Positions 60,602-61,445 of a stretch of DNA of 64,000 bases are shown here, one piece after another. Each line of letters starts with the position of its first letter. Position 1 is the stretch's first letter. Source of the DNA: Halorubrum laminariae (GTDB lineage: Archaea; Halobacteriota; Halobacteria; Halobacteriales; Haloferacaceae); the NCBI RefSeq assembly GCF_024494655.1, contig NZ_JANHDL010000003.1, positions 1 to 64,000 of the forward strand. The letters run 5' to 3'. Position numbers and translations under genes: made by a program. Below the pieces are notes generated by a model. That model saw only the letters and a list, made by a program, of their open reading frames with translations. It ran no database searches and had not been told where the DNA came from.

Positions 60602-60682
60602 ATGAGCACCATCGGCTTCATCGGCGGCAGCGGCATCTACAGAGAACAGAGGAGAGAGCCCACGGCTTCAGCCGTGGGGTGA
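60602..60682 (+). pseudogene. mtnP: mtnP (S-methyl-5'-thioadenosine phosphorylase), disrupted after 13 codons
   Basis: Only MSTIGFIGGSGIY remains, the highly conserved start of methylthioadenosine phosphorylase. After 60640 the frame runs through transposon sequence and stops at 60680-60682. The expected Glu-Ala-Leu continuation is not found anywhere downstream up to 61480. The enzyme recycles methylthioadenosine from polyamine synthesis and SAM chemistry; this copy is non-functional. The promoter region looks intact. Confidence 0.85.
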
Positions 60683-60729
60683 ATCCGACAACTGGGAAAG
60701 AAACCACGCATCAAGATCCTCCCGGATAT

Positions 60730-60831
60730 TCACTCTGTTAGCTCGTCCAATCCTGCCTCTAACACCTCTATATATGCTTCCGAAAGATCCAAATCGATCG
60801 CTTCTGCGTAACCGACTTGCTTGAGACGCAC
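60730..60831 (-). pseudogene. Short frame inside the IS remnant, likely 3' end of a small protein gene
   Basis: The minus strand encodes 33 residues, [33 protein letters not shown] in total, the last about 25 looking like a real acidic helical C-terminus. The possible GTG start overlaps the tnpB fragment and a stop lies two codons upstream. It may be the remains of a small regulator or accessory gene of the element. Low certainty. Confidence 0.35.
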
Positions 60832-61242
60832 TGGTCAGCCGATACCAACGCGAAGACGCACAACTTCTGGGCGTTCAGGAAGTTCACCGAGCGACTGGCC
60901 TGTACCGCCGAAGAGTACGGCATCTCGGTGGAGATTCGGTCAGAAGCGTGGACGAGTCAAGAGTGTCCAGACTGTGGGTCAACTGATCGAACAACGCGGC
61001 ATCAGGACACGCTCACGTGTCTGTGTGGGTTTGAGGGCCACGCCGATCTCACAGCATCGCGAACATTCCTCGAGCGGCAGACAGACGAAGCAGTCAGGCC
61101 GATGGCACGGCCCGTGCGATTCGAGTGGGACGACCACGAGTGGTCGGAGATATCATACTCTCCTGAGAGGGACAGTCCCAAAGAGGAGCGCACAAACCGG
61201 AGTACCAGTACTGGGAAACTTGCCTCTGGGGAGACGGCATAG
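60808..61242 (+). pseudogene. tnpB: Truncated TnpB (IS200/IS605 RNA-guided nuclease/transposase accessory)
   Basis: Only the C-terminal region survives. It begins near [17 protein letters not shown] and contains the zinc ribbon CPDCG and CLCG. The catalytic RuvC Asp is in [11 protein letters not shown]. The usual protein is about 400-430 residues, so two thirds are missing. An antisense short frame abuts the broken 5' end. It cannot be active alone. Confidence 0.9.
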
Positions 61243-61445
61243 CCACTATCCCACCAGAGGAATCCCACGACTTCAGTCGTGGGAGGATGTCAATACGTTC
61301 CGTATCGAACCGTCTCGGAGTATCAGTGAGTGCTCGCCTGGAAGTCGAAACGTCTGATTAGCTCTCCGGAGCTCTATCTCTCGGCCATGCACGGACGATC
61401 ACGCCAGTCCAGTCTATCTGCCACGACGGATTCCGCGAACACTAG

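Follow-up and report, generated by a model that had tools for sequence, protein, structure and literature searches.

Loss of the methylthioadenosine phosphorylase gene mtnP at an IS200/IS605-type insertion in a Halorubrum genome

At one locus of a Halorubrum genome, the first 13 codons of what looks like mtnP, the gene of methylthioadenosine (MTA) phosphorylase (MTAP), run directly into transposon-like sequence. Is this stub the remnant of a genuine mtnP, does the genome carry a second copy or a substitute, how was the rest of the gene removed, and how does the cell manage without it? The locus lies in a window, that is, the whole stretch of DNA that was analysed, of 64,000 nt (G000:C34:1-64000), from a 3.62-Mb draft assembly of 42 contigs that is 99.89% complete, with a contamination estimate of 6.19%. 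The assignment to Halorubrum is based on the identity of relatives that share this locus. Coordinates refer to the window, and the features lie on the forward (+) strand unless stated otherwise.

The stub starts with the ATG at 60602 and ends at 60640, encoding the 13 residues MSTIGFIGGSGIY. Its 39 bases are identical at 39 of 39 positions to mtnP of several Halorubrum species and match at 34 to 39 positions across all mtnP-bearing loci, whereas nothing else on the two strands of the window matches the 39-base mtnP start at more than 26 positions. By this comparison, the resemblance is not due to chance, and the stub is the start of mtnP, as the original prediction had held. The surroundings are also those of mtnP. 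An FAD-dependent oxidoreductase gene (DAO/Mqo-like, PF01266/PF06039; 57887-59308), found at the same upstream place in most relatives' loci, is followed by the gene of a YeiH-family membrane protein (PF03601; 59547-60560), the direct upstream neighbor of mtnP in nearly all Halorubrum loci, and an acetamidase/formamidase-family gene (PF03069; 61480-62787) is the downstream neighbor. Halorubrum salinum GX71 (L061) has genes for the FAD oxidoreductase and YeiH, an intact mtnP, and then acetamidase and CapA genes, and those of the window are arranged alike except that mtnP is missing. The H. salinum gene, with 296 codons and identical first residues, is located at exactly the same site; neither of the observations that would have spoken against the prediction, a full mtnP with a different start at this site in relatives or a match of the 13 codons to an unrelated gene, was made.

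A blastn comparison of the window with the H. salinum locus gave 89% identity up to 60640 (mtnP codon 13), then a break, and again a match from 61431, which corresponds to 15 bp beyond the H. salinum mtnP stop codon and opens the native spacer between mtnP and the acetamidase gene (61431-61479). Relative to H. salinum, 867 bp (codons 14-296, the stop codon and 15 bp) are exchanged for 790 bp of different sequence. The transposon end begins at 60641, exactly where it had been predicted, and no full phosphorylase domain (TIGR01694/PF01048) was found at or near the locus. The direct adjacency of mtnP and the acetamidase gene is a feature of the lineage of H. salinum and the window; in most Halorubrum species, scpA-smc come after mtnP, and pyrG-guaA precedes the acetamidase gene elsewhere in the genus (comparison with L055, L057 and L060).

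The remainder of mtnP is absent not only downstream, as had been noted, but from the entire assembly. A profile search of the draft assembly gave no TIGR01694 match, and the intact H. salinum MTAP protein had no match in the genome even at E<=10. When the mtnP-scpA region of relatives was compared with the genome, just scpA-smc on contig C12, the 39-bp stub and low-scoring repeats were recovered. Two PF01048 proteins are encoded, one on C38 and one elsewhere on C34, both nearest to uridine phosphorylase; they score 48 and 31 bits against the mtnN profile (TIGR01704), for which the cut-off is 73.8, and no mtnN was found in the genome. Almost all haloarchaea carry two such PF01048-type proteins, one of which has been shown to prefer guanosine (PMC9700705), and the two proteins therefore probably represent the normal complement and not a replacement. 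The prediction had left the choice between a loss of MTA recycling and a second mtnP elsewhere; the genome search, with neither another mtnP nor an mtnN, favors the former over the latter. MTAP (TIGR01694) was present in 22 of 22 congeners in a first search and in all 46 other Halorubrum genomes of good quality (completeness of 90% or more, contamination of 5% or less), while the two further Halorubrum genomes that gave no MTAP match are 79% complete. As judged from these searches, Halorubrum has mtnP as its MTA phosphorylase gene, in a single copy, and it has been lost from this genome, although in a draft of 42 contigs a small chance is left that a copy lies in an unassembled stretch.

Such a loss could be simulated if contigs had been joined wrongly at repeated IS copies and the true mtnP were missing from the assembly. 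IS605-type copies are indeed repeated, and the genome is a draft with the contamination estimate given above. Nevertheless, we consider an artefact highly improbable: the flanks on both sides align with a single uninterrupted syntenic stretch of H. salinum, the junction lies in the interior of a 452-kb contig, and the unique mtnP sequence of 852 bp, which a misjoin should leave on some contig, is found nowhere in the assembly. Moreover, the mtnP promoter has decayed as well. In nearly all relatives, a TATA box, TATAAGTA, is located about 30 bp upstream of the mtnP ATG; the sequence reads CATAAGTA in H. salinum and GTTAAGTG in the window (approximately 60571-60579). The core promoter, which had been taken to be intact, is thus degraded, and the change would fit relaxed selection after the loss of the gene, partly begun in the shared sublineage. 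A reciprocal rearrangement, in which an inversion carried the rest of mtnP away, was also considered and rejected, as scpA-smc on C12 stand without an mtnP tail. Because of this, and because the acetamidase gene of H. salinum directly follows an intact mtnP, the rearrangement of the acetamidase gene is an older, separate event.

The DNA that took the place of mtnP begins with a remnant of an IS200/IS605-type element, as had been proposed. Other Halorubrum species carry full-length elements of the tnpB-only type; the segment 60641-60810 matches their left end, with 84% identity to L146, and 60811-61293 matches the 3' third of tnpB and their right end. The full-length copy L146 spans about 1.66 kb and encodes a TnpB of 470 aa with the OrfB_IS605 and TNB domains; compared with it, about 1 kb of the core is missing between 60810 and 60811. 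What is left of tnpB (60811-61242) is a 141-codon frame from the TTG at 60817 that comprises only the zinc-finger TNB domain, OrfB_IS605 being lost, and with this much of the core gone, TnpB is dead. The right end (61243-61293), aligned with the right ends of L142, L146, L148 and L149, has the terminus GGATGTCAA. Subterminal hairpins are predicted at both ends, with z-scores of -4.3 (left end, -11.7 kcal/mol) and -2.6, and other copies have comparable ends. No frame of the TnpA (Y1 transposase) type was detected in 60641-61293, and the full relatives compared are likewise tnpB-only elements. The extent of 60602-61294 originally given for the truncated gene and the remnant holds for the mtnP start and the switch at 60641, while the other boundaries had to be refined: the remnant occupies 60641-61293, 61294-61329 is the 3' end of another gene, and the native flank resumes at 61431.

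Both junctions of the element are informative. At the left, it starts directly 3' of the tetranucleotide CTAC (60637-60640), which is part of mtnP codons 12-13 (ATC TAC). The same CTAC directly precedes the left end in four other copies (L142, L146, L148 and L149, of which L142 is in this genome), and therefore the left junction is a native insertion junction. At the right, TACGTTCCGTATCGAACCGTCTCGGAGTATCAGTGA, which follows the terminus at 61293, encodes YVPYRTVSEYQ and a stop. These last 11 codons and stop (61294-61329) belong to a PIN/DUF3368-like gene that is paired with a UPF0175 gene in other Halorubrum genomes, and the gene end together with its 3' flank (61294-61361) is 80-83% identical to L143, L152 and L155. 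The name DUF3368 for this toxin-type gene is our assumption; an intact homologue gave no match in Pfam, and plasmid records label relatives of the protein PilT-type. Intact homologues have a CTAC immediately ahead of the equivalent base (GGCTAC/TACGTCCCG in L155). Insertion 3' of CTAC without duplication was thus found for the left end and for the presumed donor of the right flank, and by this comparison the right end is also at a native target, that of a different gene. The following stretch (61362-61430, no strand assigned) gave no match in the sequence searches of relatives; it is probably a flank of the lost toxin-antitoxin pair.

A single element with the flanks of two different insertions is most simply explained by two copies in the same orientation that recombined with each other. 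First, as the left junction shows, a tnpB-only element of the IS200/IS605 superfamily inserted 3' of CTAC in mtnP codons 12-13. Second, a UPF0175/PIN-type toxin-antitoxin pair would have been situated between mtnP and the acetamidase gene and would have contained a further copy of this element in the same orientation, likewise 3' of CTAC. Third, homologous recombination between the copies would have removed all DNA between them, leaving one hybrid element with its left flank from mtnP and its right flank from the toxin gene. In addition, about 1 kb of the core was deleted from the element. If the toxin-antitoxin pair was located between mtnP and the acetamidase gene, that single deletion explains the loss of mtnP. 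Such an arrangement was found in no genome, so that the second and third steps are without a witnessed intermediate. Alternatively, a single insertion might have brought along about 137 bp of the element's old 3' flank, the toxin-gene tail, if cleavage at the right occurred at a cryptic site, and the rest of mtnP might have gone in a deletion of its own. This would also account for the CTAC at the left junction and for the foreign right flank, but it requires an aberrant transposition and an independent deletion that ended exactly at the right edge of the insert, whereas recombination between two copies requires just one deletion; we therefore regard the single insertion as unlikely. The prediction of an insertion plus a deletion is borne out by the left end after codon 13 and the absence of the remainder of a gene that is intact in H. 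salinum GX71. Taken together, we assign a probability of roughly 85% to the reading that mtnP was lost via IS insertion and deletion by recombination between two copies, and that MTA phosphorolysis by this route is gone.

Further traces of such elements are present in the genome. L142 (G000:C10, about 8.2-8.4 kb) is a palindrome-only relic resembling a PATE, with the left end after CTAC and the right end immediately adjoining. In the window, 63052-63126 is a second IS605-type right-end scar, with a hairpin, GGAGGATGTCAA and a terminus at 63126. At this site, H. salinum has about 560 bp with an apparent Doc/Fic-type toxin frame that the window does not have, and a short antitoxin-like frame is kept nearby in the window, at about 62873-63020.

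What does the loss mean for the cell? It could no longer phosphorolyse MTA, and possibly 5'-deoxyadenosine, by the mtnP route, and it would have to tolerate, export or deaminate these compounds. In archaea, MTA arises in diphthamide formation, in Tsr3-type aminocarboxypropyl transfer and in polyamine synthesis, and Methanocaldococcus has a promiscuous MTA phosphorylase (PMC6302742). The expectation that the loss should matter is not supported by the distribution of the enzyme: in 391 Halobacteria genomes that are at least 95% complete, MTAP was found at the curated cut-off in 252 and was absent from 139. As about a third of the sampled Halobacteria are without MTAP, its loss is evidently tolerated and compatible with life in this class.

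One reason for this tolerance, which concerns the consequences of the loss and does not compete with insertion and deletion as its cause, could be that amidohydrolase-family deaminases handle MTA and that mtnP was redundant before it was lost. The genome encodes several TRZ/ATZ paralogues and a match to NF005557, annotated as 5'-deoxyadenosine deaminase (L134, 703 bits; cut-off 522). This protein is, however, encoded on a 28-kb contig, with purine permease genes and a uricase-like gene as neighbors, and it shares no more than about 70% identity with the conserved orthologue of the genus, which was not found in this genome. In addition, across the 391 Halobacteria, the NF005557 deaminase is commoner with MTAP (77%) than without it (52%), although this count includes close relatives, which are not independent of one another. 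A class-wide role of the deaminase as an MTAP stand-in was rejected, the association being opposite, and prior redundancy in this strain is a tentative explanation at best, rather doubtful in our view. The sole NF005557 match (L134/L165, G000:C14:2257-3690) is 89% identical to a second copy in the congener G057. The inherited Halorubrum deaminase orthologue beside the fumarase gene was not found in the genome, and the synteny on the fumarase side breaks at that gene. With mtnP lost and the deaminase orthologue of the genus not found, both usual routes for SAM-derived nucleosides would be altered in one genome, which may be a coincidence. It is a speculative and quite improbable proposal that, having lost both MTAP and its native enzyme of the 5'-deoxyadenosine-deaminase type, the strain exports MTA and 5'-deoxyadenosine, feeding neighbors, or uses an undescribed route, maybe with the xenologous deaminase of the small contig.

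The loss of mtnP read from the DNA is real and specific to this lineage; it came about by insertion of an IS200/IS605-type element and by deletion, and the scar left behind is a hybrid element with a deleted core. The gene and the element belong to known kinds, and as a type of event, IS insertion and IS-mediated deletion, the case is one of ordinary gene loss. Its value lies in a natural knockout of a gene that is otherwise universal in the sampled genus, in a readable mechanism, in which one core-deleted element has a native target-site junction at either end, each from a different gene, and in the contrast that it offers for how haloarchaea dispose of MTA and 5'-deoxyadenosine, a question worth asking because about a third of the sampled Halobacteria lack MTAP.

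Compared with known systems, the 13 codons are the exact start of the MTAP/MtnP family (TIGR01694; PF01048) in the genus, at its genomic place, but the stub is without about 283 of the 296 codons and the catalytic domain and is no longer a functional member. Similarly, 61294-61329 encodes the same C-terminus (VPYRT.SEY) as intact homologues from UPF0175/PIN (DUF3368-like) toxin-antitoxin pairs, of which the window keeps only the last 11 codons. In RNA-guided TnpB systems with reRNA (PMC8612924), the tnpB 3' end and the right end, both kept in the window, are the guide-RNA source; the window copy differs in that the OrfB_IS605 domain is lost, and for this reason it yields no nuclease. The part that corresponds to the guide-RNA source (60811-61293) is now followed by toxin-gene sequence, which would be a possible guide. 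The superfamily is known to insert 3' of a fixed target and to cause no duplication there (PMC8612924). With the IS1341 type (tnpB only), described in Haloquadratum and Natronomonas (PMC3119063), the element shares common subterminal palindromes, a fixed short target on its 5' side, the absence of a duplication and the TnpB C-terminus. Core-deleted haloarchaeal IS605-type elements are also documented, among them the relics called PATEs in the Haloquadratum/Natronomonas catalogue (PMC3119063). The copy in the window differs in that it is core-deleted and in that its flanks stem from two different insertion sites.
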